A stretch of DNA of 64,000 nt. Origin: a bacterium (GTDB taxonomy: Bacteria > Verrucomicrobiota > Verrucomicrobiia > Limisphaerales > J093). A program made the position numbers and the translations under genes. The DNA lies in contig JAKANS010000007.1 in NCBI GenBank assembly GCA_021823625.1, positions 1 through 64,000 of the forward strand, in the 5' to 3' direction. The stretch's first letter is position 1. Each line of letters opens with the position of its first letter. Shown here in pieces: positions 38,685 to 54,551 of this stretch. The notes under the pieces were generated by a model. That model was given only the letters and a program-made list of their open reading frames with translations, made no database searches and was not told the origin of the DNA.

Positions 38685-40517
38685 TCACCGGCCTGCCCGC
38701 AGGCGCGCCACAGCGCGTTTGACCCCCCAACCGCTGCGCTCCAACGCGGCGGTGGCCAGGTTCGCGTCAGCCCCCGTCAGCGTCCGAACGATGCGGACCG
38801 CGCGGTCGCGCAACTTGGCGTTGGACGGCCGCACCTCCACCATCAGGTTCTCGACCACCTTGCCCAACCGCACCATCGCGAGCGTGGTCAGGAGGTTGAG
38901 CAGCAGTTTCGTGGCGGTGCCGGCCTTCAACCGCGTCGAGCCGGTCAGCACTTCAGGGCCGATCCGCGGGGCGAGCACAACGGCCGGCCGGGTGCCGCGC
39001 GGGAATCTCAAATTCGGGTTGAAGCAAAGCAAAACGGTCTTCGCGCCCACGTTTCGGGCCGCCTGGAACGCGCCCCAAACGAACGGGGTGCGACCGCTGG
39101 CCGCGATCCCGACGACGACGTCCCGTCGTGTGATGCCGCGAAATTCGAGGGCCTGCCGGCCCGCCTCGCCATCATCCTCGGCGCCTTCGAGCGAAGACCA
39201 CAAAGCCGGGTGGCCGCCGGCGACGATCCCTTGCACCATCTCGGGCGGCACGCTGAACGTCGGCGGGCATTCGCTCGCATCCAAAACCCCGAGCCGGCCG
39301 CTCGTGCCGGCACCGACATAGAACAGCCGCCCGCCACGGCGGAACGCGGCAACCACCAACCGGACCGCGCGTTCGATGTGGACCTGCTCGCGCCGCAAAG
39401 CGCGCGGCAGTCTGGCGTCTTCGCTCAACATGAGCCGGATCGCCTCGCCGAGCGGCATTCGGTCCAGGTGAGTGGAGCGCGGGTTGCGTTCCTCGGTTGG
39501 CGAAGGTGCGGTGGCGGCGGGGATGAGAATGTCCGCCGGTGGCGACGGCCCAACGACGCGGCGCGCCGGCTCCAACTTCCTGGCTAACGCGACCGCGCCC
39601 CAGACTCCGTCGCGCGGCAAAATCCGGAAAACCGCCTGCGGCCAGCGTGCCTGTAGCCGACGCTTCACCGCCGCCGCGAACCTTGGCTGGTGGCGAAACG
39701 TGCCGCCGGTGCCGAAAAACTCCACGCGAACGCCAATTTTGACCAGGCGCCCGGCGCAGGCCGCAGCGTGGGTAGCCAACGTGTCCGCCGCGTGCGCGAT
39801 GATCGTGGTGGCGAGCCGGTCGCCGGTCTGCGCCGCGGCGAAGACTTCAACCGCCAACGCCGCAATCTCGGCCTTGCTCGCGGCGTGTAGCCAGGTGACC
39901 AGGTCGTTCGGTTCGTTGAGTTGCAGTGCGCGCAGGCAGCGTTGTCCGAGCCGCGGCCACGCGCCGTTGCGATCGTACTCGCCGACCACCGTCCGCAACG
40001 CGCCAAGCGCAATGTCGTACCCGCTGCCCTGGTCGCCAAGCAAATGGCCCCAGCCCCCGACCTTCGCGGTCAGTCCGGCGGCGTTGCGACCGTAACAGCA
40101 CGAGCCGGTGCCGCTGATGACGATCACGCGGGCAGCAGGCGCGGGCGAAGCCGAGTCTTCCGCGGCGGCCAGGGCGGTTTCCAAGTCGTTGCCAACCCAG
40201 CAGGGCACGTCCGGCCAGGCAAGCGCAGCGGCGGCGCGGATGCGTTTTCGGTCGCTGGCTTCGCGGGCGCCGGCCAGGCCGACGCCGACGGCGCCGGGGT
40301 GCGGAAAGCGTTGCGCAATCTGCCGCAAGACCGCGCGCAGTTGGGCATCGGTGAGGAGCCGCAGGTTCGCCGGGCCGGTTTCGAAGCGATCGAGCGCGCG
40401 GTCGGTGGCATCGGCCAGCAGGGCCACGGTGCGGGTGCCGCCCGCCTCGATGCCGAGGACGGTTCGGGTCAAACTGGGGGCGGAAGCGGGCTTCCGGACG
40501 CGGATGGAGCCAACCAT
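38685..40517 (-). CDS. murQ: BadF/NagK-type sugar kinase fused to MurNAc-6-P etherase
   Basis: A 610-residue two-enzyme fusion. Residues ~18-310 are an ASKHA sugar kinase of the BadF/BadG or N-acetylglucosamine kinase type: phosphate loop VLGIEAGGTRTVALL, VIVISGTGSCCYGRN, GGWGHLLGDQGSGYDIA. Residues ~345-610 are MurQ: RRGGRLFYVGAGTSGRLGVLDASECPPTFSVPPEMVQGIVAGG, GEAGRQALEFRGITRRDVVVGIAASGRTPFVWGA, and LKAGTATKLLLNLLTTLAMVRLGKVVENLM. MurQ cleaves the lactyl ether of MurNAc-6-P to GlcNAc-6-P and D-lactate, so the kinase half probably phosphorylates MurNAc or GlcNAc from recycled cell wall. The gene stands alone. Confidence 0.93.
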   Translation of the reverse strand: MVGSIRVRKPASAPSLTRTVLGIEAGGTRTVALLADATDRALDRFETGPANLRLLTDAQLRAVLRQIAQRFPHPGAVGVGLAGAREASDRKRIRAAAALAWPDVPCWVGNDLETALAAAEDSASPAPAARVIVISGTGSCCYGRNAAGLTAKVGGWGHLLGDQGSGYDIALGALRTVVGEYDRNGAWPRLGQRCLRALQLNEPNDLVTWLHAASKAEIAALAVEVFAAAQTGDRLATTIIAHAADTLATHAAACAGRLVKIGVRVEFFGTGGTFRHQPRFAAAVKRRLQARWPQAVFRILPRDGVWGAVALARKLEPARRVVGPSPPADILIPAATAPSPTEERNPRSTHLDRMPLGEAIRLMLSEDARLPRALRREQVHIERAVRLVVAAFRRGGRLFYVGAGTSGRLGVLDASECPPTFSVPPEMVQGIVAGGHPALWSSLEGAEDDGEAGRQALEFRGITRRDVVVGIAASGRTPFVWGAFQAARNVGAKTVLLCFNPNLRFPRGTRPAVVLAPRIGPEVLTGSTRLKAGTATKLLLNLLTTLAMVRLGKVVENLMVEVRPSNAKLRDRAVRIVRTLTGADANLATAALERSGWGVKRAVARLRAGR

Positions 40518-40641: not shown

Positions 40642-41415
40642 ATGCAAGTTGTCATTCTCTGTGGCGGTCAGGGAACCCGCCTCCGCGAGGAAACCGAGTT
40701 CCGCCCCAAGCCGATGGTTCCGGTGGGGGGGCGTCCGATTTTGTGGCACATCATGAAGTTCTACGCCACGCACGGGCACAAGGATTTCATCCTGTGTCTT
40801 GGCTACAAGGGCGAGATGATCAAGGACTATTTCCGCAACTACCAGTGGAACACCAGCGATGTCACGCTGCGGTTGGGGCGCCAACCCAAAACGACTTACC
40901 ATACCAGCCATGACGAGGAGGATTGGACGGTAACCTTGCTGGACACCGGTCAGACCACGCAAACCGGCGGGCGGCTCAAACGGGCGCTGCCGTACGTCCG
41001 CGAGAACACCTTCCTCCTCACGTACGGCGACGGCCTCACCGACAGCAACGTCAACGACTCCGTCGCGTTTCACCAGCGGCACGGCAAGATCGTCACCTTG
41101 ACGGCCGTTCGCCCGCCGGGTCGCTTCGGCGAACTGGCCCTGAAGGGTACGGCGGTCGTCGGCTTCCAGGAAAAACCGAGGCACCAATTCAGCTACATCA
41201 ACGGCGGGTTCTTCGTCCTGAACAAACAGGTGGGGGACTACATCGCCGGCGACGACATGCCCTTCGAGTTGGATCCACTGGTCCGGCTGGCGGCGGAAGG
41301 CCAGGTGGAAGCCTTCCAGCACGACCGGTTCTGGCAGTGCATGGACACGTACCGCGAAACGCAGCTCCTGAACGAACTCTGGACCTCCGGCCGCGCGCCG
41401 TGGAAGATTTGGTAA
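40642..41415 (+). CDS. rfbF: Glucose-1-phosphate cytidylyltransferase
   Basis: A 257-residue nucleotidyltransferase making CDP-glucose from CTP and glucose-1-phosphate. I start at MQVVILCGGQGTRLREETEFRPKPMVPVGGRPILWHIM; this places the signature L-C-G-G-x-G-T-R-L at residues ~6-14 and the K-P-M sugar-phosphate motif just after. Family-specific blocks include YATHGHKDFILCLGYKGEMIKDYF, LTYGDGLTDSNV (metal-binding) and SYINGGFFVLNKQV. It opens the cluster and commits carbon to the CDP-dideoxyhexose route with the next three genes. Confidence 0.96.
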   Translation: MQVVILCGGQGTRLREETEFRPKPMVPVGGRPILWHIMKFYATHGHKDFILCLGYKGEMIKDYFRNYQWNTSDVTLRLGRQPKTTYHTSHDEEDWTVTLLDTGQTTQTGGRLKRALPYVRENTFLLTYGDGLTDSNVNDSVAFHQRHGKIVTLTAVRPPGRFGELALKGTAVVGFQEKPRHQFSYINGGFFVLNKQVGDYIAGDDMPFELDPLVRLAAEGQVEAFQHDRFWQCMDTYRETQLLNELWTSGRAPWKIW

Positions 41416-41490
41416 GAGACAGACCGGTGGGAGCGGTGGCGACGCGGCTTTGAACTTGTCGCCTGTGCGCCCGTCCGCCATTTTTCGCGT

Positions 41491-42666
41491 GTGTCCTTGG
41501 AAAACGCCAGGCTGGCTGTTGACACCGAACCGTTTGCCGCGAGCTATCGCGGCCGGCGGGTCTTGGTGACCGGCCATACCGGCTTCAAAGGCGCCTGGCT
41601 CGCCGAATGGTTGCTCGCGCTCGGCGCGGAGGTGACCGGTCTCAGCCTCGATCCGACGACGAAACCGGCACTGTTCGACCAGCTCGGACTGGCCGGGCGA
41701 TTGCACGACCGGCGGGCTGATTTACGGGATGCCGGGGCGGTCCGCGAAGTGATCGCGCGGGCGCAACCGGACTACATTTTCCACCTGGCTGCCCAAGCCA
41801 TCGTGCGCGAATCCTACGAGCGGCCGGAAGACACCTTTGCCGTCAACGTCCAAGGCACCGCGAACCTGCTGGGAGCGTTGCGTGGTTGCGCGCGGCCGTG
41901 CGCCGTGGTGTGCGTCACCAGCGACAAGTGCTACGAGAACCGGGGCTGGGTCTTCGGCTACCGCGAGGAAGATCCGCTGGGCGGCCACGATCCGTACAGC
42001 GCCAGCAAGGGCGCAGCGGAAATCGTGATCGCCTCGATGCGCCGCTCGTTCTTCGCCGAAGGCCCCGTGCGGGTGGCAAGCGCGCGCGCGGGCAACGTGA
42101 TCGGCGGGGGCGATTGGGCCAAGGACCGCATCGTGCCCGACAGCGTGCGCGCCCTGGCTCGCGGCGAACCCATCCCGGTTCGCAACCCGCGGTCCACGCG
42201 ACCCTGGCAGCACGTCCTCGAGCCGTTGTCCGGGTACCTCTGGCTGGGCGCGTTGCTGCGACGACCCGAGCTCCGGTCGTTGAAGCCGGAAGCAATCGCC
42301 AGCGCGTTCAATTTCGGGCCCGACGCGGATGCGAACCGCACCGTGGGCGAGGTGGTGGGCGAGATTCTCCGACATTGGCCGGGACGCTGGGAGGACCGAA
42401 GCGATCCCCAAGCGCCGTACGAAGCCAGCTTGTTGCAGCTCGCCACCGACAAGGCCCGCGCCGTCCTGGGCTGGTCGCCGGTCTGGGGGTTCCGCGAAGC
42501 CGTGGCCGCCACCGTGAGTTGGTATCGCCGGGCCGAAACCAACCCCGCCGAGACGAACCTCCAAGATTTGACCGCCGGACAAATCGCGGCTTACACCGCC
42601 CAGGCCCGCACGCTCGGCTTGCCTTGGGCGCTCCCCGCGCGGGACACCGCCACCAAAACCCCATGA
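41491..42666 (+). CDS. rfbG: CDP-glucose 4,6-dehydratase
   Basis: A 391-residue extended short-chain dehydrogenase with a GTG start. The NAD loop is VLVTGHTGFKGAWL (G-x-x-G-x-x-G); the catalytic Tyr/Lys is in DPYSASKGAAE, and Thr/Asp/Lys in VVCVTSDKCYENRGWVFGYREEDPLGGHDPYS, the family-specific active-site loop. It converts CDP-glucose to CDP-4-keto-6-deoxyglucose. Its C-terminus is slightly longer than usual. The stop overlaps the next start (ATGA). Confidence 0.95.
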   Translation: MSLENARLAVDTEPFAASYRGRRVLVTGHTGFKGAWLAEWLLALGAEVTGLSLDPTTKPALFDQLGLAGRLHDRRADLRDAGAVREVIARAQPDYIFHLAAQAIVRESYERPEDTFAVNVQGTANLLGALRGCARPCAVVCVTSDKCYENRGWVFGYREEDPLGGHDPYSASKGAAEIVIASMRRSFFAEGPVRVASARAGNVIGGGDWAKDRIVPDSVRALARGEPIPVRNPRSTRPWQHVLEPLSGYLWLGALLRRPELRSLKPEAIASAFNFGPDADANRTVGEVVGEILRHWPGRWEDRSDPQAPYEASLLQLATDKARAVLGWSPVWGFREAVAATVSWYRRAETNPAETNLQDLTAGQIAAYTAQARTLGLPWALPARDTATKTP

Positions 42667-43982
42667 GCGACCGACGCACTTTACGCCGCCAGATTCTCGA
42701 TCTCGTTCGCGAATACCACGCCGCCGAACCGCGCCGGCCATTCCGCCCCGGCGAGGACGCCGTGCGCTATGCCGGGCGGTACTTCGACGCGAGCGAACTG
42801 GTTTCGCTGGTGGATTCCTCGCTGGATTTCTGGCTGACGGCCGGACGTTATGCCGAGGAATTCGAGGCCGGTTTGGCCGCTTACCTCGGCGTCGAGAACG
42901 CGATCCTGGTCAACTCCGGTTCGTCCGCGAACCTGGTCGCCTTTTCCACGCTGACCTCGCCGCGGCTGAAGGAACGGCAGGTCAAACCCGGCGACGAAGT
43001 CATCACCGTCGCGGCCGGTTTTCCCACCACGGTCAACCCCATCATCCAAAACCGCGCCGTGCCGGTGTTCGTGGACGTCGAACTCGGAACGTACGTGCCG
43101 GCGCTGGAAAAGATCGAGGCGGCTCGCGGTCCGAAGACGAAGGCGGTCATGATCGCGCACACGATGGGCGTGCCGTACGCGGTGCGGGAACTGCGCGCGT
43201 GGTGCGACCGGCACGGTTTGTGGCTCATCGAGGATAATTGCGATGCGCTGGGCAGCCGCTACAGCGGCCAGCTCACCGCCACGTTCGGCGACCTTGCCAC
43301 GTTCAGTTTCTATCCTGCGCACCACATCACGATGGGCGAAGGCGGAGCCGTCGTGGCCGCCAACGACGACCTGGCCCGGATCGCGCGCAGTTTCCGCGAC
43401 TGGGGTCGCGACTGCTACTGCGCCGGCGGCGAGAACAACACGTGCGGAAAGCGGTTTGGCCAGCAATTCGGCACCCTGCCCTTCGGCTACGACCACAAGT
43501 ACGTCTATTCGCACATCGGCTACAACCTGAAGGTCACGGACATGCAGGCGGCCATCGGCGTCGCCCAACTGGCCAAGGTGGAGGAGTTCGTCGCGGCGCG
43601 GAAACGCAATCACGCCGCCCTGGCCGCGGGGCTGAAGCAGCACGAGCCGCACCTGATCCTCCACACGGCGTCGGCGAAGGCCGATCCGTCGTGGTTCGGC
43701 TTCGTCATCACCGTGCGGCCGGAAGCGCCGTTCACCCGCGCCGACCTGGTCAACGCCTTGGAGACCGCGCGCATCGAGACGCGGAATCTGTTTTGCGGCA
43801 ACCTGCTCCGACACCCCGCCTACGCGGGGATCGAGCATCGCGTGGCTGGCCTGCTGACCAACAGCGACGTCATCACGACCAACACCTTCTTCATCGGCGT
43901 TTATCCGGGACTCACGGAGGAAATGATCCGGCACGTGCTGGGAACGGTCGATGGATTCATCGCCAGCAAGACTGCCCGATGA
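42663..43982 (+). CDS. rfbH: CDP-4-keto-6-deoxyglucose 3-dehydrase (E1)
   Basis: A 439-residue [2Fe-2S]/PMP enzyme that removes the C3 hydroxyl of CDP-4-keto-6-deoxyglucose together with an E3 reductase. It has the aminotransferase fold, but the PLP lysine is replaced by histidine in FYPAHHITMGEGG (His220/221), as in E1. The cluster ligands fit the E1 spacing exactly: Cys193 (EDNCDALGS), Cys251 and Cys253 (CYC), and Cys261 (TCGKRF), i.e. C-X57-C-X1-C-X7-C. All diagnostic features are therefore intact. It is coupled to rfbG and to the following reductase by ATGA overlaps. Confidence 0.97.
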   Translation: MSDRRTLRRQILDLVREYHAAEPRRPFRPGEDAVRYAGRYFDASELVSLVDSSLDFWLTAGRYAEEFEAGLAAYLGVENAILVNSGSSANLVAFSTLTSPRLKERQVKPGDEVITVAAGFPTTVNPIIQNRAVPVFVDVELGTYVPALEKIEAARGPKTKAVMIAHTMGVPYAVRELRAWCDRHGLWLIEDNCDALGSRYSGQLTATFGDLATFSFYPAHHITMGEGGAVVAANDDLARIARSFRDWGRDCYCAGGENNTCGKRFGQQFGTLPFGYDHKYVYSHIGYNLKVTDMQAAIGVAQLAKVEEFVAARKRNHAALAAGLKQHEPHLILHTASAKADPSWFGFVITVRPEAPFTRADLVNALETARIETRNLFCGNLLRHPAYAGIEHRVAGLLTNSDVITTNTFFIGVYPGLTEEMIRHVLGTVDGFIASKTAR

Positions 43983-44731
43983 GCATGCCGCGCAAGATCC
44001 GGTGCACGGTGGCCGCCATCGCAGACCACGGCGGGCGCGTGTACACGGTCGATCTCACGCCCACCAGTGCTGTGCCGGCGTTTCGCCCGGGCCAATTTCT
44101 GCACCTCACGGTGGACGAGTACGACCCGAGCGGTTTTTGGCCCGAGTCGCGGGTTTTTTCGATCGCCAGCTCGCCGCGCGAACGGAACCGGCTGCGCATC
44201 TGCTACGCGGTCAAAGGGCGTTACACCACCCGCATGGAGCAGACGCTCAAGGTGGGGAGCGAAGTCTGGGTGAAGTTGCCCTACGGCGACTTCGTGATCG
44301 ACGGCGCGGGCGACGCGGTGCTGATCGCGGGCGGCACGGGCATCAGCGCGTTCACCGCGTTCCTCGAGGCCCTGTCGCCAGAAACAACCAGCAAGGTCAC
44401 GCTGGTCTATGGCGCGCGGACGCCGGCATTGCTTTTGTTTCAGGAAATGATCCTGGACCGGCTCGCGCGCGTGCCAGCCTTCGATCTGGTCTTGTTCACG
44501 GAGGTGGCGGCTGCGGGTTTCTCGCAACGGATGGCCGGCTTGCCCCGCGTCCCGCATTGCCTGGCTGGCCGCATTGCATTGGAGCCGCTCTGGCCCCCCG
44601 CTTCCGACTTCTGCACTCCGAACTCCGTTTTCCACCTCTCCGGCCCGCCGGTTATGTTGAAATCTCTAACGACCGACCTGCTGGCGCGAGGGATTGAGCC
44701 GGGGCGTGTTCGGACGGATGCGTGGGAATGA
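43979..44731 (+). CDS. E3-like FAD/NAD(P)H reductase lacking a ferredoxin domain
   Basis: A 250-residue flavin reductase. The start ATG overlaps the rfbH stop. An N-terminal FAD-binding barrel is seen in PAFRPGQFLHLTVD and SRVFSIASSP (the R-x-Y-S flavin motif, here R-V-F-S). A pyridine-nucleotide domain follows with VLIAGGTGISAFTAFLEAL and HLSGPPVMLKSL. Position suggests it is the E3 partner reducing E1. Known E3 proteins (AscD, RfbI/DdhD) are ~330 residues and start with a plant-type [2Fe-2S] domain; no such cysteine cluster is present. Electrons may go straight from FAD to E1 or via a ferredoxin encoded elsewhere. Confidence 0.85.
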   Translation: MSMPRKIRCTVAAIADHGGRVYTVDLTPTSAVPAFRPGQFLHLTVDEYDPSGFWPESRVFSIASSPRERNRLRICYAVKGRYTTRMEQTLKVGSEVWVKLPYGDFVIDGAGDAVLIAGGTGISAFTAFLEALSPETTSKVTLVYGARTPALLLFQEMILDRLARVPAFDLVLFTEVAAAGFSQRMAGLPRVPHCLAGRIALEPLWPPASDFCTPNSVFHLSGPPVMLKSLTTDLLARGIEPGRVRTDAWE

Positions 44732-44744
44732 ATCTCTCCCGGAC

Positions 44745-45416
44745 ATGAAAACCACGGAGAACCGAATCTTCATCGTGGGAGCCTCGGGGCACGGCTCGGT
44801 GGCCGCTGATGCCGCCCGGCACGCGGGGCGGGAAGTGGTTGGCTTCCTGGACTCCTTCAAACCAACCGGTCAGGTCGTGCGCGGGATTCCAATCCTTGGC
44901 CACCCAGACAACCTGGCTGACCTGCTGAAACGCCATGACGTCCGCCGCCTCTTTCTCGGCATCAGCGACAACTGGACCCGACAGCAGGTGGCGGCGAAAC
45001 TACGGGCGGCCGTTCCGGACTTCGAACTCACGAGCATCCTTCATCCGCAGAGTGTCGTCGCCACGGATGTCGTTCTTGGCCCGGGTACGCTTGTCTTGGC
45101 GGGGGCGATCATCAATACTGGCTGTTTGATCGCCGAGAACTGCATCGTCAATACCAAGGCTTCGCTGGACCACGACGGCGAAATGCGGTCCTGCGCCAGC
45201 CTGCTGCCCGGCGTCACCACTGGTGGCAACTGCGTTATCGGCGAATGTGCCTGCGTGTGCGTTGGCGCGATCCTCTCGCACAAAGTTTCGATTGGCGATC
45301 ACGCGGTGGTGGGCGCCGGCGCGGTGGTGCTCCACGATGTGCCGCCTTGCTCCCTCGCCTATGGTGTGCCGGCCCGGGTCGTTCGCAGCCGGCAGCCGGG
45401 AGAGCGTCACTTTTGA
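44745..45416 (+). CDS. NeuD-type sugar O/N-acyltransferase
   Basis: A 223-residue left-handed beta-helix enzyme. The ATG at the start of MKTTENRIFIVGASGHGSVAADAARHAG was chosen; the ORF's earlier start overlaps the reductase gene. An N-terminal Rossmann-like part (IFIVGASGHG) is typical of the NeuD/PglD family. It is followed by hexapeptide repeats (VVLGPGTLVLAGAIINTGCLIAENCIVNTKASLDHD) containing the catalytic His, and by VSIGDHAVVGAGAVVLHDVPP. These enzymes use acetyl-CoA or another acyl-CoA to modify an amino or hydroxyl group on a nucleotide sugar. It would act after the aminotransferases in the same operon. Confidence 0.88.
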   Translation: MKTTENRIFIVGASGHGSVAADAARHAGREVVGFLDSFKPTGQVVRGIPILGHPDNLADLLKRHDVRRLFLGISDNWTRQQVAAKLRAAVPDFELTSILHPQSVVATDVVLGPGTLVLAGAIINTGCLIAENCIVNTKASLDHDGEMRSCASLLPGVTTGGNCVIGECACVCVGAILSHKVSIGDHAVVGAGAVVLHDVPPCSLAYGVPARVVRSRQPGERHF

Positions 45417-45418
45417 AT

Positions 45419-46522
45419 ATGCGCCCGAAAATCAACTACGCCGGTCCGTGGATCACCGCCCACGAAGTGGAGGCAGTGAAGGAGGCCGTGCAAAACGGCT
45501 TCTACCAAAACTACCGGGTTCATGCCAAACAACTGGAAGAGCGCCTGTGCCAGTTCCTCGGAGTGAAACATGCCCTCGCCACGAACTCGGGAACCGCCGC
45601 CATTCACCTGGCCGTCGCCGCCGCCGGCATCAAACCGCGGGATGAAGTCATCACGACCGACAGCAGTTGTGTCGCCTCCGCCATCCCCATCGTTTACGTC
45701 GGCGCCACCGCGGTCTGTGTGGACGTGGATCCGGACACGTGGTGCCTCTCACCGGAAGCCGTGCGCAAAGCCATCACCCCGCGAACCAAGGCGATCCTCG
45801 TCGTGCATTGGAACGGTCACCCGGCCGCGATGGACGAACTCATGGTCATTGCCCGCGAACACGACCTGAAGGTCATCGAGGACGCCGCCCCGGCGCTGGG
45901 CGCGGAATACAAGGGACGGAAGGTCGGGACGATCGGCGCGGCGGGCTGCTTCAGCTTTCAGGGGGCGAAGGTGGCCATCGGCGGCCAGGGCGGCGCGCTG
46001 GTGACCGACGATCCCAAGCTGTTCGAAATGGCGGGCATTCTCGCGAGTTACGGCCGCACCGATTCGGCGAGGCAGTATTGGTCCGACTACGTGGGGTTCA
46101 ATTACACGATGCCCAACCTGCCGGCGGCCCTGGCCCATGCCCAGCTTGGCCGCATTGATGAACTGGTGGCGAAAAAGCGGGAAATCTGGCGGTGGTATTG
46201 CGCGGGGCTGGCGGACTTTGACCGCGTCAAGTTGATTCACGAGGCGCCCGGCACACAGAGCACCTATTGCTACCCGCCGATGCTGATTGGCGACTCGGTC
46301 CAGCGCACCCGCGAGGAAATTCTGGCCGAGTTGCGCAAGGACAACATTGACGCCCGCCCTGCGCAGCCGCGGGTCAGCCTTATGCCAATGTTCCAAAACC
46401 GTTTCCCCAACCCGGAAAGCGCGAAAGTGGAGGCTCGAGGCGTTCTCCTGCCCGGCGCGTTCAACGTCACGCGTGAAGATATCGCCTTCGTCTGCCAGCG
46501 TCTCCGGGAGGCCGTAAAGTGA
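45419..46522 (+). CDS. DegT/DnrJ/EryC1/StrS sugar aminotransferase
   Basis: A 367-residue PLP enzyme with the start MRPKINYAGPWITAHEVEAVKEAVQNGFY. Typical blocks are ATNSGTAAIHLAVAAAGI, DVDPDTWCLSPEAV, VIEDAAPALGAEYKGRKVGT and the PLP lysine in CFSFQGAKVAIGGQGGALVTDD. In contrast to rfbH the Lys is present, so this is a real transaminase. It probably transfers an amino group from glutamate to a keto sugar, such as the 4-keto group left by RfbG/RfbH. It overlaps the following fusion gene by four bases, and its catalytic part is related to that gene. Confidence 0.93.
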   Translation: MRPKINYAGPWITAHEVEAVKEAVQNGFYQNYRVHAKQLEERLCQFLGVKHALATNSGTAAIHLAVAAAGIKPRDEVITTDSSCVASAIPIVYVGATAVCVDVDPDTWCLSPEAVRKAITPRTKAILVVHWNGHPAAMDELMVIAREHDLKVIEDAAPALGAEYKGRKVGTIGAAGCFSFQGAKVAIGGQGGALVTDDPKLFEMAGILASYGRTDSARQYWSDYVGFNYTMPNLPAALAHAQLGRIDELVAKKREIWRWYCAGLADFDRVKLIHEAPGTQSTYCYPPMLIGDSVQRTREEILAELRKDNIDARPAQPRVSLMPMFQNRFPNPESAKVEARGVLLPGAFNVTREDIAFVCQRLREAVK

Positions 46523-48201
46523 TTTCTGCAATGAACACACGCCGTTCTCGCACATACCAAGACACCATTACGCAGGAGTTCGCCTTTCTGAAGGCGACCG
46601 CGAAACTGGAGGACCTTTTCGCGAAGGGACTGGACCTCCCCGCCAGCGCCGGCATGGTCGTGCCGCTGGCGAAGCTGCATGCCGACGATCCGGATCTGCC
46701 CGGGGAGATTGCCGCGTGGAATGCGGCCGGCAGTTCGCCGCTGCCGGGTGCGGCGACAGAGCCCGCCGCGGCCAAGGCCTGGTTCGAATCGCTACTTGCC
46801 GCCGCGGATCGGTTGGGTTTCCTCGTGCTCGACAAGCATGGCCGCCGGACCGGGATCATAGCCTTCACTCGCGGCTTCGGAGACAATCTGGAGTTGGAGT
46901 TGGGCGTTGTCGCTGGCCATTCTGGGCTGGCGGAAGCGGTGAATGCTGTCTGCCGTTGGGCGGCGAACACACTCTGGCCAGAGTGCATCATTGTCCGCGC
47001 CGGAGCTCCAAGCGAGTTTTTAACCGGTGCCGGCTTCTTCTTGGGCGAACGTGGCACTCTGGTATTCCGTCCCGGCGCCGGGAAGGCGGGTCAGACGACC
47101 ATCCTCACCGCGGGGCCAAGCATCTCCGCCCGCGAGGCGAGTTACGCCCACCAGGCCACCAAGTATGGTTGGAACCACCAGTGGAATCGCTACCTCGCCG
47201 CGTTCGAGAAGCAATGCGCGGAGTACATCGGTGTGCCCCACGCCATCGCCACGTCTAGTTGCACCGGCGCACTGCACATCGCGCTGGCGGCGCTGGGCAT
47301 TGGGCCGGGAGACGAGGTCATCGTCCCGGACACCACGTGGGTGGCGACCGCCAACGCGGTGCTTTACGTCGGCGCGACGCCGGTGTTCGCCGACATTGAC
47401 CTCGACAGTTGGTGCCTCGATCCGGCGTCGTTCGAGGCCCAAATTACCTCCCGCACCAAGGCCGTCATGCCAGTCCATTTGTACGGGCATCCCTGCGACA
47501 TGGACCCCATCCTGGCCATCGCGCGCCAGCACGGCTTGTTCGTTGTGGAGGATGCCGCACCTTCGATCGGAGCCGAATACAAAGGAAGGCGGACCGGTTC
47601 GTTTGGCGACTTTGCGTGCTTCAGTTTTCAGGGAGCGAAACTCGCGGTGACCGGCGAAGGCGGCATGTTGCTGACGCGCGATCCGAAGCTTCATGAAAAG
47701 GCCTATTCGATTTGGGACCAGGGCAGGAAGCCAGGCACATTCTGGATCCAATCCAACGGCGTGAAGTACAAGATGGCCAACCCGCTCGCTGCCATCGGGC
47801 TGGGCCAGTTGGAGCGGAACGACGCGATGGTCGAAGCCAAGCGCCGGGTTTTCTCCTGGTATGCGGAGGGTCTCGCCGGTGTGCCGCACATTGTTCTCAA
47901 TCGGGAGCAATCCTGGGCGCGCAGCATTTACTGGATGAGCAGCCTCCGGCTCGACGAGGCGGCGCCGGCCACGCGCGACGAATTGCGCGACCAGCTCAGG
48001 AAACGGAACGTGGACACGCGCTCCGTCTTCCCGGCCATCTCGCAATACCCGATCTGGCCGCTGAAACAATCACCCGCACCCGTGGCCCGGCGCGTGGGCG
48101 ACCAGGCCATCAACCTGCCCAGTGGCGTCTGCCTGACCCGCGACGAGGTGGACTACGTCTGCTGCTGCATCCGCCAAGTGCTCGCGGGCAAGGCCGCCTG
48201 A
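46519..48201 (+). CDS. GNAT-like domain fused to DegT/DnrJ aminotransferase
   Basis: A 560-residue fusion. Residues ~15-190 look like a GNAT acyltransferase: FLVLDKHGRRTGIIAFTRGFGDNLELELGVVAGHSGLAEAVNAVCRWAANTLWPECIIVRAGAPSEFLTGAGFF follows the beta-beta-alpha layout. The fold assignment is by pattern only. Residues ~205-560 are a second DegT family transaminase: ATSSCTGALHIALAALGI, VVEDAAPSIGAEYKGRRTGSFGDFACFSFQGAKLAVTGEGGMLLT with the PLP lysine. The partner gene upstream is a related single-domain enzyme. A fused enzyme could aminate and then N-acylate the same sugar. No frameshift separates the domains. Confidence 0.85.
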   Translation: MISAMNTRRSRTYQDTITQEFAFLKATAKLEDLFAKGLDLPASAGMVVPLAKLHADDPDLPGEIAAWNAAGSSPLPGAATEPAAAKAWFESLLAAADRLGFLVLDKHGRRTGIIAFTRGFGDNLELELGVVAGHSGLAEAVNAVCRWAANTLWPECIIVRAGAPSEFLTGAGFFLGERGTLVFRPGAGKAGQTTILTAGPSISAREASYAHQATKYGWNHQWNRYLAAFEKQCAEYIGVPHAIATSSCTGALHIALAALGIGPGDEVIVPDTTWVATANAVLYVGATPVFADIDLDSWCLDPASFEAQITSRTKAVMPVHLYGHPCDMDPILAIARQHGLFVVEDAAPSIGAEYKGRRTGSFGDFACFSFQGAKLAVTGEGGMLLTRDPKLHEKAYSIWDQGRKPGTFWIQSNGVKYKMANPLAAIGLGQLERNDAMVEAKRRVFSWYAEGLAGVPHIVLNREQSWARSIYWMSSLRLDEAAPATRDELRDQLRKRNVDTRSVFPAISQYPIWPLKQSPAPVARRVGDQAINLPSGVCLTRDEVDYVCCCIRQVLAGKAA

Positions 48202-49017
48202 ATGGACCGAATGTCCAGCGTCGAACTGGCCCGCCAGGCGCGCTGTCATGCGCTGCAGATGGTGGCGCGCGCCCGCGCCTCCCACGTCGGCGGCGCCCTT
48301 TCGATGGCCGACCTGCTGGGGGTGCTTTACACCGACATCCTCCGCTTCCGGCCCGACGATCCCGCCTGGCCGGAGCGCGATCGATTCCTGCTGAGCAAAG
48401 GACACTCCTGCACCTCGCTCTACGCGACGTTGGCCCTGCGCGGGTGCTTTCCCGTCGCCGAACTCGAAACTTACGGGGCCGATGGCTCGCGGCTCATGTC
48501 GCACATCAGCCACAAGGTGCCCGGCGTCGAATTCTCCACGGGTTCCTTGGGCCATGCGCTGCCATTTGGTCTGGGCATGGCACTGGCCGCCCGGCGCCGC
48601 GGGCTGTCCCACCGCGTGTTTGTCCTCGTCAGCGATGGCGAACTTGATGAAGGCTCGAACTGGGAGGCGCTCCTCCTGGCGCCGCAACATCGGCTGGACA
48701 ACCTGGTGGTGCTCGTGGATTACAACAAAATCCAGAGTCTCGGCTCGGTGGCCGAGGTGGCTGAACTCGGGCCTCTCGTGGAAAAACTCCGCGCCTTCCG
48801 CTGGGCGGTGCGCGAGCTCGACGGCCACAACCATGACGAAATCCGCGCCGCTCTGGACACGTTGCCGTGGGAACGCGGCCGGCCAAACTGCCTGGTGGCC
48901 CACACCGTCAAAGGCAAGGGCGTGGAATTCATGGAGAACCGCCTTGAATGGCATTACCGGTCGCCGGACGCGACGCAACTGGCAGCCGCGTTAGCCGGGC
49001 TGGGAGGGGCCCCGTGA
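48202..49017 (+). CDS. Transketolase-like N-terminal subunit
   Basis: A 271-residue thiamine-diphosphate-binding subunit. The ATG is directly behind the previous stop. The ThDP/Mg motif is GDGELDEGSNWEA-like (VSDGELDEGSNWEALLLAPQHRLDNLVVLVDYNKIQSLG), and KGHSCTSLYATLALRG, SHISHKVPGVEFSTGSLGHALPFGLGMALAARR and AHTVKGKGVEFME are the usual transketolase-A blocks. Together with the next gene it forms a split transketolase. A housekeeping pentose-phosphate role is unlikely from its place in a sugar-nucleotide operon; a C2-transfer to a keto sugar is possible. The stop overlaps the next start (GTGA). Confidence 0.93.
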   Translation: MDRMSSVELARQARCHALQMVARARASHVGGALSMADLLGVLYTDILRFRPDDPAWPERDRFLLSKGHSCTSLYATLALRGCFPVAELETYGADGSRLMSHISHKVPGVEFSTGSLGHALPFGLGMALAARRRGLSHRVFVLVSDGELDEGSNWEALLLAPQHRLDNLVVLVDYNKIQSLGSVAEVAELGPLVEKLRAFRWAVRELDGHNHDEIRAALDTLPWERGRPNCLVAHTVKGKGVEFMENRLEWHYRSPDATQLAAALAGLGGAP

Positions 49018-49916
49018 GAACCGCCTTCATCCGAGAACTCATCGCGCAGGCGCGCGAGCATCCGGATATTTTTCTCGTCGTCGGCGACCTGGGTTATTCC
49101 GTGGTTGAGCCGTTTGCACAGGAATTTCCTGACCGGTTTCTCAACGCGGGCGTGGCCGAACAAAACATGACGGGCGTCGCCGCCGGCCTGGCGTCCGAAG
49201 GCTACCACGTCTTCACCTACTCGATCGCGAATTTTCCGACGCTGCGTTGCCTCGAGCAAATTCGCAACGACATCTGTTACCACGGCGTGCCGGTGACCGT
49301 GGTTTCGGTGGGGGCTGGCTTGTCTTATGGCAATCTCGGCTATTCGCATCACGCCGTCCAGGACCTGGGCATCCTCCGCACGTTTGGCGAGTTGACGATT
49401 CACTCGCCCGCCGATCCCGGTGAGGCCCGCGAATCTGTGCGCTGGCTGACCCGCAATCCCGGTCCCTCCTATCTGCGCCTGGGCAAGGCGGGCGAGCCTG
49501 ACCTGTATCCGGCACAGCCGCTTGGCCCGCGCCCCAACGTGGTCCATCCGGGAACCGCCGATGTCGCGATTGCCGCGACCGGTTCCGTGCTTAAATGCGC
49601 GTTGGAAGCCGCGGCGTTCCTGCGATGTGACGGTCTGGATCCGGCGGTGCTTTCCTGTCCTTGGCTCCAACCGCTGGGCACTGAGTTTGCCGCCGTTTTC
49701 CAGGCGTATCGCCGCGTCCTGACCGTCGAGGAACACGTGGCCAGCGGCGGCTTGGGCTCGCTCATGAAGGAGTTGCTGCCGCGTTCGGTGGCGGTGGAGA
49801 GCCTGACGATTCCGCTCCCGGTCACACGCATGGTTGGCTCCCAGTCGTTTCTTCGCCGCGAGGCGGGGCTGGACGGCCCGGCGATTGCCGCGGCCTTGAA
49901 GCGCTTGGCGACCTGA
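49014..49916 (+). CDS. Transketolase-like C-terminal subunit
   Basis: A 300-residue partner of the preceding gene, with a GTG start (RTAFIRELIAQAREHPDIFLVVGDLGYSVVEPFAQEFPDRFLNAGVAEQNMTGVAAGLASEG). The catalytic Glu that activates ThDP is in AGVAEQNM. Further blocks are SVGAGLSYGNLGYSHHAVQDLGILRTF and VLTVEEHVASGGLGS of the transketolase C-terminal domain. As in DXS-like and split bacterial transketolases, the two subunits should form an alpha2-beta2 enzyme. It overlaps the flippase gene by one base, so the whole operon appears to be one translational train. Confidence 0.93.
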   Translation: MRTAFIRELIAQAREHPDIFLVVGDLGYSVVEPFAQEFPDRFLNAGVAEQNMTGVAAGLASEGYHVFTYSIANFPTLRCLEQIRNDICYHGVPVTVVSVGAGLSYGNLGYSHHAVQDLGILRTFGELTIHSPADPGEARESVRWLTRNPGPSYLRLGKAGEPDLYPAQPLGPRPNVVHPGTADVAIAATGSVLKCALEAAAFLRCDGLDPAVLSCPWLQPLGTEFAAVFQAYRRVLTVEEHVASGGLGSLMKELLPRSVAVESLTIPLPVTRMVGSQSFLRREAGLDGPAIAAALKRLAT

Positions 49917-51253
49917 TGCAAGCCCTGATCCAGCGGGCGCGGACCTGGGTGGGATTGGATCGAGCCATCCTTTTCAACCTGGTGGGGCGGGTCTGGTCCC
50001 TCCTCTCCGGGCCGGTCACCCTGTTCCTGGTTGGCACCCGGCTCAGCGAGTCGGAAATAGGCCTCTTCTACAATTTCTTCGGCATTCTCAGTCTCCAGGT
50101 CTTCCTTGAACTGGGGCTCGGCCAGTGCCTCGTGCAGTTTGCCAGCCACGAGTTCGCGCATCTGCGCTTCCGGGCGGATGGCACGTTGGAAGGCGAGGCG
50201 TCCGCGCGGGACCGATTGCTGGCCATGGCCCGGCTGGCGCTCAACTGGTATGCCGTCCTGGCCGGGTTGTTGATCCTCCTGGTCGGAGGGGGCGGTCATT
50301 GGTTCCTGTCCCGACAGGCACTGGGCGGTGCGGTTTGGGTGGGGCCCTGGTGGGCGCTGATCGTGGTGGCGGCCTTCAATCTGATGACGCAACCGCTGTG
50401 GTTCATGTTGGAAGGCTGCAACCAGGTGGTCTTCGTCAATGGCTATCGTACGTTCGCGCAAATCGCGACCGGGCTGGCGATGTGGACCACCATTCTTCTG
50501 GGCGGGCGGCTGGCAGCAAACGCTTCGGGGATGGCTGGGGCCGTCGTGGTGAGCCTGAGCCTGTTATTGATCCAGCGCCGCTCCTTCCTTCGCCAGGTTT
50601 TGGGCCATTCGGCCCGCGGAGCCACGGCACTGCTTCGCGAAATATGGCCTTTCCAATGGCGCATGGCGCTGAGTTCCGCCAGTGGATACCTGATTTTCAG
50701 CCTGTTCACGCCTGCCATCACCTGGCTCTACGGCCTGGAGGTCGGCGGCCGGATGGGCATGACCTGGCAACTGGCGAGCGCCTTGAGCATGGCCGCATCG
50801 GCTTGGGTGAGCACGAAGGCGCCCCGTTACGGCATGCTGATCAGCCAGCGGCGGTTTGCCGAATTGGACGCGCTCGCCCGCCAGGTCATGATCCGGGTGG
50901 TGTCGCTCGGCGTGATCGGTGCTGTGGTCATGGTGGCGGGGGTGGCCTGGCTCAAGGCGCATTTCGCCTTTGGGCAGCGCTTCCTGGACCTGCCCTCGGT
51001 GGCCTTCCTGGCGCTCGCCACCGTGTCGAACCTGGTCATGGTTTCCCAGGCCTTCTACCTCCGGGCGCACAAGCGGGAACCGTTTGTCTGGACGGCGGTC
51101 GCCGACGGCCTCCTCGTCGCCCTCGGCGTGGCCACCTTGGGTCGCGCTTATGGACCGCGCGGCGCCTGCCTGGCCTACGCGATCATTCAGACCGCGCTGC
51201 TCCCTTTCTCGACGCTGATTTTCCGCACCTGCCGGTGCCGGTGGCACGCTTAG
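49916..51253 (+). CDS. Wzx-like polysaccharide flippase
   Basis: A 445-residue inner-membrane protein with about 12 hydrophobic helices and an early amphipathic segment, starting MQALIQRARTWVGLDRAILFNLVGRVWSLLSGPVTLFLVGTRLSESEIGLFYNFFGILSLQVFLELGLGQCLVQFASHE. That N-terminal layout is typical of the Wzx/MATE-like (MVF) transporters that flip lipid-linked oligosaccharides. Family sequence conservation is low, so the call rests on topology and on its place at the end of a sugar operon. The loss of intact glycosyltransferases downstream leaves its substrate open. Confidence 0.8.
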   Translation: MQALIQRARTWVGLDRAILFNLVGRVWSLLSGPVTLFLVGTRLSESEIGLFYNFFGILSLQVFLELGLGQCLVQFASHEFAHLRFRADGTLEGEASARDRLLAMARLALNWYAVLAGLLILLVGGGGHWFLSRQALGGAVWVGPWWALIVVAAFNLMTQPLWFMLEGCNQVVFVNGYRTFAQIATGLAMWTTILLGGRLAANASGMAGAVVVSLSLLLIQRRSFLRQVLGHSARGATALLREIWPFQWRMALSSASGYLIFSLFTPAITWLYGLEVGGRMGMTWQLASALSMAASAWVSTKAPRYGMLISQRRFAELDALARQVMIRVVSLGVIGAVVMVAGVAWLKAHFAFGQRFLDLPSVAFLALATVSNLVMVSQAFYLRAHKREPFVWTAVADGLLVALGVATLGRAYGPRGACLAYAIIQTALLPFSTLIFRTCRCRWHA

Positions 51254-51345
51254 AGCGATCTTTGCGGGTACGCACCGATTCAGGGAAGCCAAGGCTGAAC
51301 TGGCGTCGGCAAACGCGGAGAGTCTGTCTGAGAAACAGCCGGGTT

Positions 51346-51704
51346 GTGCCTGAAATCACGGTCATCGTGCCAACCGTCACCGGCCCGGAGATGCTGCGCA
51401 CAGCTCTCCAGACGGTGGCCCGGCAATCCGCGCGAGATTGGATCGAATGCGTCATTGTGTCTGAAAACGGTGGCGGCAACAGTTCCTCGTCAAGCTGAAG
51501 CTCCCGCACCTATGCTTTCATTGTCTCCGCGTGACGCATGTGAATCGGGTCCGGCGAGTCGGGATCCCTAGGGAGGCGGTCATGCGATTGGCAAATCACG
51601 CCTCGGAGTTGGTCCATCGGATCTACCAGCGGGAGCGCGTCGAGGGCGTCGTCAAGTGGCGGGATGCCATGCGCTTTCCCCGTTGGCATGTGGCGTCAAA
51701 GTGA
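51346..51704 (+). pseudogene. Truncated, frameshifted family-2 glycosyltransferase remnant
   Basis: The first 50 codons read VPEITVIVPTVTGPEMLRTALQTVARQSARDWIECVIVSENGGG, the normal N-terminus of a GT2 (GT-A) glycosyltransferase, then hit a stop after a serine run. Another frame continues with a different coherent sequence (RRVGIPREAVMRLANHASELVHRIYQRERVEGVVKWRDAMRFPRWHV) to a stop at 51702-51704. A functional GT2 is ~250-330 residues, so most of the domain is missing. This looks like a scar left by a deletion at the end of the polysaccharide cluster. Confidence 0.65.
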
Positions 51705-51801: not shown

Positions 51802-54543
51802 ATGTTCAAGCGCATTGCCCTGCACCCTGTCATTCCACACCTGAGGGCCTGGTGCCTAGGACTGGCGTTCGGGCTCGGCGTGGCCGCTTCCGGTCTGGCT
51901 GAGGATACCAACCTCGTCTTCAACGGCTCGTTTGAATCCAGCCGACCCAGCTCAGACGCGCCCGACGGCTGGTCGGCGGCCGGCAACCCCGCCGTGAAGC
52001 AGCGGTTGGTCTTGGACGCCGGTCGCGACGGCCAGCCCTGTGCCAAGCTTGAATGCACCGAGTTTGCCGGCGACGGACCCGATTTCCACGCGATGATCTG
52101 TCAGTCCGGCCACGTGAGCGTGCGCCGTGGCCAGTGGTATCGGCTGGCGTTTTGGGCGAAAGGGCAAGGCATCAAAGGCGGCGCGGTCGAAGTGGCGCTC
52201 AACAACACCGATCCATGGGAGAATGCCGGCCTGGCCGACGCGTTCCGGACTGGCGCACGCTGGGAGCGGTTCGAGATGCTTTTTCGAGCCGACCGCGATT
52301 TACCTGCCGCCACGAGCCGGCTCCAGTTCTGGTTCAAGGACACCGGCACGCTCTGGCTCGACGACGTGGAACTCACCGAGTCGGCGGAAGGCCAGCAGTG
52401 GTTCCCGCAAATCGTCACCGCGGGGGTGAAGAACTTCGTGCCGAACAGCAGCTTCGAGTGCGGCCCGGCGGGCTGGGGCAGCTACACTTGGGGGCTGGGT
52501 GGCTGGGCGGGAAATCTGTACCGGCTCGAAGGGGAACTCGACGGGGCCGTCGCCCAGCACGGCCAGCATTCGCTGAAGATCGCGCTCAACCCGGCGACGC
52601 TGCCGGTGTTCTGGTTCGATTACTACGAGCCGGTTCGCCAGCCGGTCCGCCGCGTGCTCGTGGCCAATCGCGGCTGGTTCCGCGTGAAACCCGGCGAGCG
52701 ACTCACGCTGTCCGCCTTCCTGCGCGCCGACGCCGACGCGGTGACTGCGCAACTCGCCGCCGTGGAACCCGGTGAGCCCGTCGATCGAAAGGCCGTGACC
52801 GTCGGCCGCGACTGGACGCGGCAGGAATTCAGCTTCGTCCCGTCGCAGCCGTTTGTGTTCATCGCGGTGGGCCTGGATCTGGAGGCTTCCCGACTCGACG
52901 CGGCGACCCTCTGGGTGGATGCGATCCAGTTGGAACGCGGCGCGCAGGCCACGGCCTACCAACCGCGACAGCCTGTCGAGTCGTTTCTCGAAACCGGCCA
53001 GGTGGGCAACATCTTCACAAACGCGGCGCAAGGCGCCGCGTTCACGGTGCGCGCCTTCAACGACACGGACGCGCCGGCGGAGGTCCGGGGTCAATTCGCG
53101 TTGACGAACTTCTTCGACCAACGCGCCTTCACGAGTGAGCCAGAGATGAAGCTCGCGGCGCACGCCAGCGGCAGCCTCGCCTTGCGGAATGTGGTTCCGA
53201 ATCGGCTCGGCTTCTTCCAGGCAAGCTGGGCCGCGGGCACGGGCGCCAACTCGCTCCGCTGCGCGATCGTCGAACCCGCCGATCCGCTGCTGGCCGATTC
53301 GCCGCTGGGTTTCAATCACGCCTACTCATGGGACTTTCTCGTCCGCCTGGCGCGGGAAGCCGGCATCGTCTGGTGGCGCGATTGGTCGGCCAAGTGGCAG
53401 ACCGTCGAACCGGAGAAAGGCCGGTTCGACTGGGCGGTTGCGGACCCGCAAATCCAGCGGGTGCTCGCGCTCAATAGCCAGGTGGAAGTGCTGCTGCCAT
53501 TCCCGTCCACCACGTGGTCCACTTCCGCACGTGCCGAGGAAGTGGCGCAAGCGGCCGGCGCCGACAGTTACCTCCGCACGCGGCTGCCGCTGGCCTGTGC
53601 CCCGAAGGACTTGAGCGACTTCGGCCGCTATGCCGCCGAAACCGTCCGCCACTATCGCCGCGAGTCACCGCGGAGCGTCACGCATTTCCAGATCCTCAAC
53701 GAGCCGGTCTATACCGATTACGCGTTGCCGCAGAAGTTCGGCTACACGCTGGACGATTACCTGCGGCTGGTGGAGGTCGCGTACCGCGCGATCAAGGCGG
53801 CCGATCCGCAGGCGGTGGTCGTCGGGGGCCTCAGCGCGAACCTGGAATCCGGCTGGACCCGCGACTTCGTGAAGCGGGGCGGGCTCCAGTTCGTGGATGT
53901 GTTCGACCTTCACAACTACGATCCTGCCCGGCCCGCCGAGAGTTTTGAAGACGCGTTCCGTTCGCTCGAAGACCTCATGCGCGCCCACGGCGGCCCCAAG
54001 CCGGTGTGGATCACCGAATGGGGCTGCTACGCCGACGACGATCCGCCCTGCGTCCCGGTGGCGGTCGGGGACGCGACGATGAATCGCTGCCGCTGGCCCA
54101 GCGAGCGCGCGGCCACCGAGCACATCGTGAAATTCACCGCGGTGGCCTTCGCCCACGGCGTGCGGAAGATCTTCTTCCACGCCGGCACCTGCGGGCCGAT
54201 CAACGGGGTGGACGCGGGCGGAGTACTGTTCGAGTATGGCGGGGCACCGCGGCGGATGTACGCCGGCGTCGCCGCGCTGACGAAGCTGCTGGGCGTGCCG
54301 GAAGCCTGCGAGCGCATCGTGAACCGCGATGGCACCAGCGCCTACTGCTTCCGGACCGGCGGCCGGACACTTGCCCTCGCCTGGCGGACCGGCGAAGGGA
54401 GCAAACCGCTGAAACCCGTTGAGGGCATCACCGTGCGCGACCTCATGGGCAACCCGATCGAGGTGAACGCCGCTGTCTTGAGCGAAACGCCGATCTACCT
54501 GCTCGGCACCAGCGCGGACGGGGTGGAACGCGCTCTGCCGTGA
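51802..54543 (+). CDS. Secreted clan-A glycoside hydrolase with carbohydrate-binding domains
   Basis: A 913-residue exported enzyme. Signal peptide at residues ~10-33 (LRAWCLGLAFGLGVAASGLA). Residues ~36-190 and ~215-385 look like two CBM4/9-like jelly-rolls (NLVFNGSFESSRPSSDAPDGW, LWLDDVELTES; NFVPNSSFECGPAGWG, LWVDAIQLERG). Residues ~495-850 are a TIM barrel of the GH39/GH5 kind, with the acid/base Glu634 in QILNEPVYTD and the nucleophile Glu739 in WITEWGCY. Substrate is probably a plant or algal polysaccharide; the exact family is uncertain. A second secreted carbohydrase gene follows eight bases later. Confidence 0.85.
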   Translation: MFKRIALHPVIPHLRAWCLGLAFGLGVAASGLAEDTNLVFNGSFESSRPSSDAPDGWSAAGNPAVKQRLVLDAGRDGQPCAKLECTEFAGDGPDFHAMICQSGHVSVRRGQWYRLAFWAKGQGIKGGAVEVALNNTDPWENAGLADAFRTGARWERFEMLFRADRDLPAATSRLQFWFKDTGTLWLDDVELTESAEGQQWFPQIVTAGVKNFVPNSSFECGPAGWGSYTWGLGGWAGNLYRLEGELDGAVAQHGQHSLKIALNPATLPVFWFDYYEPVRQPVRRVLVANRGWFRVKPGERLTLSAFLRADADAVTAQLAAVEPGEPVDRKAVTVGRDWTRQEFSFVPSQPFVFIAVGLDLEASRLDAATLWVDAIQLERGAQATAYQPRQPVESFLETGQVGNIFTNAAQGAAFTVRAFNDTDAPAEVRGQFALTNFFDQRAFTSEPEMKLAAHASGSLALRNVVPNRLGFFQASWAAGTGANSLRCAIVEPADPLLADSPLGFNHAYSWDFLVRLAREAGIVWWRDWSAKWQTVEPEKGRFDWAVADPQIQRVLALNSQVEVLLPFPSTTWSTSARAEEVAQAAGADSYLRTRLPLACAPKDLSDFGRYAAETVRHYRRESPRSVTHFQILNEPVYTDYALPQKFGYTLDDYLRLVEVAYRAIKAADPQAVVVGGLSANLESGWTRDFVKRGGLQFVDVFDLHNYDPARPAESFEDAFRSLEDLMRAHGGPKPVWITEWGCYADDDPPCVPVAVGDATMNRCRWPSERAATEHIVKFTAVAFAHGVRKIFFHAGTCGPINGVDAGGVLFEYGGAPRRMYAGVAALTKLLGVPEACERIVNRDGTSAYCFRTGGRTLALAWRTGEGSKPLKPVEGITVRDLMGNPIEVNAAVLSETPIYLLGTSADGVERALP

Positions 54544-54551
54544 TCCCAATC

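Follow-up and report, generated by a model that had tools for sequence, protein, structure and literature searches.

The ten-gene operon at positions 40642-51253 (+) of a 64,000-nucleotide stretch of DNA from a Verrucomicrobiota bacterium (contig JAKANS010000007.1; the whole stretch is hereafter the window) probably makes a cytidine diphosphate (CDP)-activated, C4-branched amino octose for a surface polysaccharide, a reading to which we assign a probability of about 0.6. The operon joins RfbF, RfbG and RfbH to two DegT aminotransferases and a transketolase encoded by two genes, one for a thiamine diphosphate (ThDP)-binding subunit (TKN) and one for a pyrimidine plus C-terminal subunit (TKC). 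An earlier annotation made without database searches (the sequence-only reading) had placed these genes here, and profile matches bear it out for each of them.

In the proposed route, RfbF and RfbG would produce CDP-4-keto-6-deoxyglucose, from which RfbH, working with a reductase, would strip the 3-hydroxyl to give CDP-4-keto-3,6-dideoxyhexose. The split transketolase would then move a two-carbon ketol (hydroxyacetyl) unit onto the C4 ketone, creating a tertiary alcohol that bears a CO-CH2OH branch. Aminotransferase 2 would turn the branch ketone into an amine, where most relatives would use reduction by a short-chain dehydrogenase/reductase (SDR), and the amine would be N-acylated either by the GNAT domain of the same protein or by a NeuD-like enzyme, an alternative raised because the GNAT domain looks degenerate in the window. 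The predicted sugar is a 3,6-dideoxy-4-C-(1-acylamino-2-hydroxyethyl)hexose that would be exported by a flippase. What the analysis shows is which genes are present, their residue pattern, their clade and their gene context; from the transketolase onward, each reaction is inferred. Context gives good support to the branching step and moderate support to amination of the branch. The features of the operon are as follows.

40642-41415 (+): rfbF, glucose-1-phosphate cytidylyltransferase (TIGR02623, 357.9 bits, cut-off 300)
41491-42666 (+): rfbG, CDP-glucose 4,6-dehydratase (TIGR02622, 453.4 bits, cut-off 278)
42663-43982 (+): rfbH, CDP-4-keto-6-deoxyglucose 3-dehydrase, or E1 (NF011936, 680 bits, cut-off 423)
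43979-44731 (+): E3-like FAD/NAD reductase without a 2Fe-2S domain (PF00175; the best NCBIfam match, a flavin reductase, is below cut-off)
44745-45416 (+): NeuD/PglD-type hexapeptide acetyltransferase (TIGR03570, 185.8 bits, cut-off 161; PglD_N plus hexapeptide repeats)
45419-46522 (+): DegT aminotransferase 1 (PF01041, 342.6 bits; catalytic lysine in an SFQGAK motif)
46519-47076 (+): N-terminal GNAT-fold domain of aminotransferase 2 (AlphaFold2 model and Foldseek; cofactor loop degenerate)
47077-48201 (+): DegT aminotransferase 2 domain (PF01041, 374 bits)
48202-49017 (+): TKN, ThDP-binding subunit of the split transketolase (PF00456, 145 bits)
49014-49916 (+): TKC, pyrimidine plus C-terminal subunit of the split transketolase (PF02779, PF02780)
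49916-51253 (+): Wzx-like O-unit flippase (NF041503, 70.5 bits, below the family cut-off of 300)

These genes lie head to tail, overlapping by 1-4 bp or standing no more than 13 bp apart, a 75-bp gap 3′ of rfbF being the sole wider spacing, and because of this close packing we read them as a single operon. RfbF, RfbG, RfbH and the NeuD-like protein all exceed curated NCBIfam cut-offs, RfbF and RfbG at equivalog level, and the operon's own copy is the sole genome match to rfbG at E≤1e-60.

Together, TKN and TKC comprise the full transketolase domain set (PP, Pyr and C-terminal). In E. coli TktA numbering, TKN keeps the equivalents of His26, His66, His100 and His261, and TKC keeps those of Glu411 and His473; Asp155 is also retained. 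None of the acceptor residues typical of pentose-phosphate enzymes is kept in TKC, where His461 is replaced by Gly, Asp469 by Leu and Arg520 by Lys. We take TktA positions 461 and 520 to bind sugar phosphate, 469 to contact a sugar hydroxyl, and 473 and 100 to hold the ketol. With TKC as the query, the GTDB collection yielded 80 homologous loci in which the catalytic and ketol-binding residues are invariant (80/80) and the replacements recur almost throughout, with Gly461 in 80/80, Leu469 or Met469 in 78/80 and Lys520 in 77/80. A quick tree search with SH-aLRT (approximate likelihood ratio test) support placed 78 of 81 rows (the window plus the 80 loci) in one clade with a support of 100; three rows from Acidobacteriota and Chloroflexota fall outside it. 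Elsewhere, the genome encodes a separate full-length transketolase that retains His461, Asp469 and Arg520, as well as 1-deoxyxylulose-5-phosphate synthase and what appear to be 2-oxoglutarate dehydrogenase and pyruvate dehydrogenase E1 enzymes. The placement of the pair against housekeeping enzymes, proposed earlier as a check, finds a clade tied to rfbF, rfbG and rfbH in a genome where the pair is not the only transketolase.

The 80 loci span about eight phyla, including Verrucomicrobiota, Pseudomonadota, Acidobacteriota, Bacteroidota and Actinomycetota, and their genes were detected by tblastn with representative sequences. A search for the gene set in other genomes had also been suggested, and it returns rfbF, rfbG or rfbH within the fetched stretch of 75/80 loci carrying the pair; four of the five lacking loci are no longer than 12.2 kb. 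rfbH occurs in 54 loci, 11 have a C-methyltransferase of the sugar C-methyl type and one has both; in at least 10 loci the fetched stretch showed rfbF and rfbG but neither of these two genes. Because the C4 ketone made by RfbG remains in every cluster variant, C4 would be the natural site of ketol transfer. Related gene sets with public annotation are present on two plasmids, from Paenibacillus and Methylovirgula.

The neighbours of the pair suggest what happens to the branch. In the region from 5.5 kb upstream to 6.5 kb downstream of TKC, 65 of the 68 loci without an aminotransferase 2 of the window type have an SDR, against 0 of the 12 loci that have this aminotransferase (Fisher p 7.6e-12, kinship ignored). 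Loci of the aminotransferase type are dispersed across the transketolase tree, the best version of which has 9 label changes. Among cultivable carriers, Chromobacterium sphagni and C. subtsugae have the aminotransferase type, and Sphingobium chlorophenolicum and Aquitalea pelogenes the SDR type. On the Paenibacillus plasmid (L111:7097-9004), an SDR and TKN are fused into one 635-residue protein within an rfbF-rfbG cluster, a fusion that links the SDR reaction with that of the transketolase. Read most simply, the branch ketone would be reduced where the SDR is present and transaminated where aminotransferase 2 takes its place; the exchange favours the branch ketone over C4 as the site of amination. 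As a tally, this mutual exclusion is strong; as a test of evolution, it carries less weight. The earlier prediction of an aminated, acylated and/or C2-branched dideoxy sugar held up in its core against the refuting conditions set for it, and the exchange narrows it to branch-ketone amination; support does not extend to the precise structure.

Both DegT aminotransferases have a catalytic lysine in an SF..GAK motif, and they are 41% identical to each other. Orthologues of aminotransferase 2 occur in 12 loci at 61-74% identity, beside TKN or beside a TylF gene that precedes TKN. Pfam sees GNAT weakly in the N-terminal domain of aminotransferase 2; in an AlphaFold2 model (mean confidence score, pLDDT, 83.1) the domain is of the GNAT fold, matching GNAT acetyltransferases in Foldseek at E 1.4e-6, and 12/12 orthologues start with a homologous domain. 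The GNAT fold of this domain and its degenerate cofactor loop are additions to the sequence-only reading, as are the flippase and the truncated glycosyltransferase fragment behind it. Across an alignment of 13 sequences, the GNAT cofactor loop is conserved in most and shortened or altered in the window and in loci L019, L022 and L036. The window and L022 are the two loci with both NeuD and aminotransferase 1, adjacent in each, and L019 and L036 gave no NeuD match; as two of the loop-altered members carry NeuD, it may have taken over acylation, a link that L019 and L036 do not share. L009 and L011, the nearest relatives with a collinear cluster, have neither NeuD nor aminotransferase 1 in the space from the reductase to the GNAT-aminotransferase; ahead of TKN they have a TylF-like methyltransferase instead. 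Relatives of aminotransferase 1 occur in L022 (67%) and L073 (51%), both in clusters that contain the same transketolase type, and when 289 genomes from the phylum were searched at E≤1e-90, the window's own copy was the sole match.

Upstream of branching, RfbH carries the His220 motif SFYPAHHITMGEGG together with Cys193, Cys251, Cys253 and Cys261. We take His220, which replaces the pyridoxal phosphate lysine, and the four cysteines of the 2Fe-2S site to be the E1 dehydrase positions, following the Yersinia enzyme. Its predicted partner at 43979-44731 has FAD/NAD motifs, just four scattered cysteines and no plant-type 2Fe-2S domain; it is in this form that the E3-like reductase called earlier is present. 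No 2Fe-2S type E3 was detected in the genome. Relatives of this reductase are found at 62% identity in L009 and L011 and also in L134 and L073, and in many Pseudomonadota clusters a full E3, 2Fe-2S domain included, lies upstream of rfbF. Electrons may pass directly from FAD to the RfbH cluster.

In line with the sequence-only reading that such a reductase is missing, the genes of the operon include no 4-reductase or epimerase of the kinds that end the abequose, paratose, tyvelose and ascarylose pathways. They also include no YerE-type gene, the sole ThDP enzyme there being of the transketolase type. Probing the genome with two kinds of SDR found beside the pair in other organisms returned distant matches only (≤30% identity), in an assembly that is 91% complete and contains other SDRs. 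Completion of a standard 3,6-dideoxyhexose by a 4-reductase elsewhere in the genome, which had been named as a competing outcome, is weakened by the lack of a close copy of either probed type, short of exclusion.

The route resembles known systems in part. Yersiniose A is made by RfbF, RfbG, RfbH, E3, YerE and a reductase. In its synthesis, the ThDP enzyme YerE puts a two-carbon branch on C4 to give a tertiary alcohol (PMC12247030). The two routes are equal up to their shared CDP-4-keto sugar, CDP-4-keto-3,6-dideoxyglucose, and then part: YerE belongs to the decarboxylase superfamily and transfers acetyl from pyruvate, whereas the window has a split transketolase predicted to transfer hydroxyacetyl, and the branch is reduced in yersiniose A and predicted to be aminated in the window. 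For miharamycin and amipurimycin, the proposal is that a two-gene transketolase attaches hydroxyacetyl to a keto sugar (PMC12247030); compared by description only, that enzyme shares the two-gene form and differs in serving antibiotics rather than CDP-hexose polysaccharide clusters in Verrucomicrobiota, Pseudomonadota, Acidobacteriota and others. A 2025 review lists ketone-accepting transketolases as 13 split-gene sequences, all from streptomycete antibiotic clusters and all proposals without a reported in vitro assay, and attributes sugar branching in lipopolysaccharide to YerE-like enzymes (PMC12247030). Two-subunit ThDP enzymes also branch a deoxy keto sugar in the aldgamycin, avilamycin (AviB1/B2) and kibdelomycin pathways (PMC12247030), but these are of the alpha-keto acid dehydrogenase-type superfamily, use pyruvate as donor and act on antibiotic sugars. 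Both reduction and transamination of ThDP-installed branch ketones are reported for antibiotic sugars, transamination in kibdelomycin (PMC12247030). Of the earlier suggestion that the sugar is new, the use of a transketolase in CDP-sugar clusters survives; ThDP ketone branching and branch transamination have these precedents.

A further likeness is to the wps-2 exopolysaccharide cluster of Actinoplanes missouriensis, which by its description has TKN, TKC, two DegT aminotransferases, a GNAT domain and Wzx, and also Wzy (PMC13390465). It differs in that "CDP" does not appear in the paper and that the section on the cluster names no rfbF, rfbG or rfbH and proposes no sugar (PMC13390465). A literature search, with subscription journals mostly beyond reach, turned up neither a paper assigning a transketolase to CDP-hexose synthesis nor an in vitro assay of the present family.

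For the loci as a whole, we see even odds that a dedicated split-transketolase clade in about eight phyla builds C4-hydroxyacetyl CDP-sugars, as a second solution beside YerE, with exchangeable finishing modules: an SDR would yield a diol branch and a GNAT-aminotransferase an acylamino branch, which in the window would give the 4-C-(1-acylamino-2-hydroxyethyl)-3,6-dideoxyhexose. If so, a large family, from dozens of CDP-hexose clusters, would join the ketone-branching ThDP enzymes. It would offer enzymes to test for making functionalised tertiary alcohols and predicted branched surface sugars for structural chemists to seek, including an acylamino-branched class of which our literature search found no described member.

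Several observations weigh against the branched amino octose and its basis. The loci were picked by TKC similarity, so they do not sample split transketolases at random, and some split transketolases outside CDP clusters have the same residue pattern. When only well-supported branches are used, the SDR/aminotransferase exchange reduces to four independent pairs (sign test p 0.25), and L022, one of the 12 loci with aminotransferase 2, also has an SDR 6.1 kb upstream. The cofactor loop of the window's GNAT domain is degenerate, aminotransferase 1 and NeuD are superfluous to the proposed route, and a truncated glycosyltransferase closes the operon, other transferases not having been searched for.

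The two superfluous genes have a place in an alternative in which one CDP-4-keto-3,6-dideoxyglucose pool feeds two sugars: transketolase and aminotransferase 2 would make the branched amino sugar, and aminotransferase 1 and NeuD an unbranched CDP-4-acetamido-3,4,6-trideoxyhexose. NeuD-like enzymes usually acetylate the amine produced by a partner DegT enzyme, a partnership that fits aminotransferase 1 and NeuD, and the two genes are adjacent in the window and L022 and missing at that place in L009 and L011. Each aminotransferase would also have a substrate. We nevertheless consider two sugars unlikely, since the operon holds no second sugar gene set, the 41% identity of the aminotransferases could equally imply similar substrates, and L073 has aminotransferase 1 with neither aminotransferase 2 nor a nearby SDR, as though the former filled the branch role there.

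It is improbable that the aminotransferases instead work at C4 to give aminated, acylated CDP-dideoxyhexoses, with the transketolase just making a precursor or serving another sugar of the polysaccharide. DegT enzymes commonly aminate C4 ketones, and among solved structures the best matches to aminotransferase 1 are perosamine synthases; but the pair is tied to rfbF and rfbG over about eight phyla, including in clusters without aminotransferase 2, an SDR is fused to TKN in Paenibacillus, the sugar-phosphate acceptor residues are replaced, and the genome has its separate transketolase. An ordinary pentose-phosphate enzyme lying in the operon by chance is scarcely credible, and we reject a housekeeping role on the residue replacements, the second genomic transketolase and a gene context that binds the family to CDP-sugar clusters: the solved structures nearest to TKN and TKC are indeed those of the Carboxydothermus hydrogenoformans split transketolase (6yaj, 6yak), which shares the two-gene layout, but its TKC keeps the aligned equivalents of His461, Asp469 and Arg520, where the window has Gly, Leu and Lys.

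Split transketolases are also found in other settings. At loci L139-L146, the split transketolases of several relatives have Gly461, Leu469 or Asn469, and Lys520, and some adjoin a 4,6-dehydratase-like SDR and a nucleotidyltransferase, neither of the CDP type; these are possibly branching enzymes for other nucleotide sugars. Because the residue pattern is found beside such other dehydratases and nucleotidyltransferases, it characterises a broader set of enzymes whose substrates may include other nucleotide keto sugars, and we rejected it as a sole marker of CDP-sugar transketolases. At L105-L107, split transketolases adjoin an RfbH-like DegT protein (28-31% identity) and have a different pattern (Gly461, Ser469), a possible further specialised group. 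Among 106 sampled genomes of the phylum, the remaining split transketolases are mostly unlinked to RfbG.

The Wzx-like flippase is 50-51% identical to its counterparts in L009 and L011. Just 3′ of it, at 51253-51500, lies the start of a glycosyltransferase family 2 (GT2)-like gene that ends prematurely. The polysaccharide cluster appears to be broken off at this point, because collinearity with L009 and L011 stops at the flippase. Beyond the fragment, a 913-residue protein with no Pfam match at E≤1e-5 (51802-54543) is encoded ahead of a gene for a glycoside hydrolase family 28-like protein (54540-56066). On the other side, adjoining the operon on the opposite strand at 38685-40517 (-), a BadF-type ATPase/kinase domain is fused to a SIS domain.

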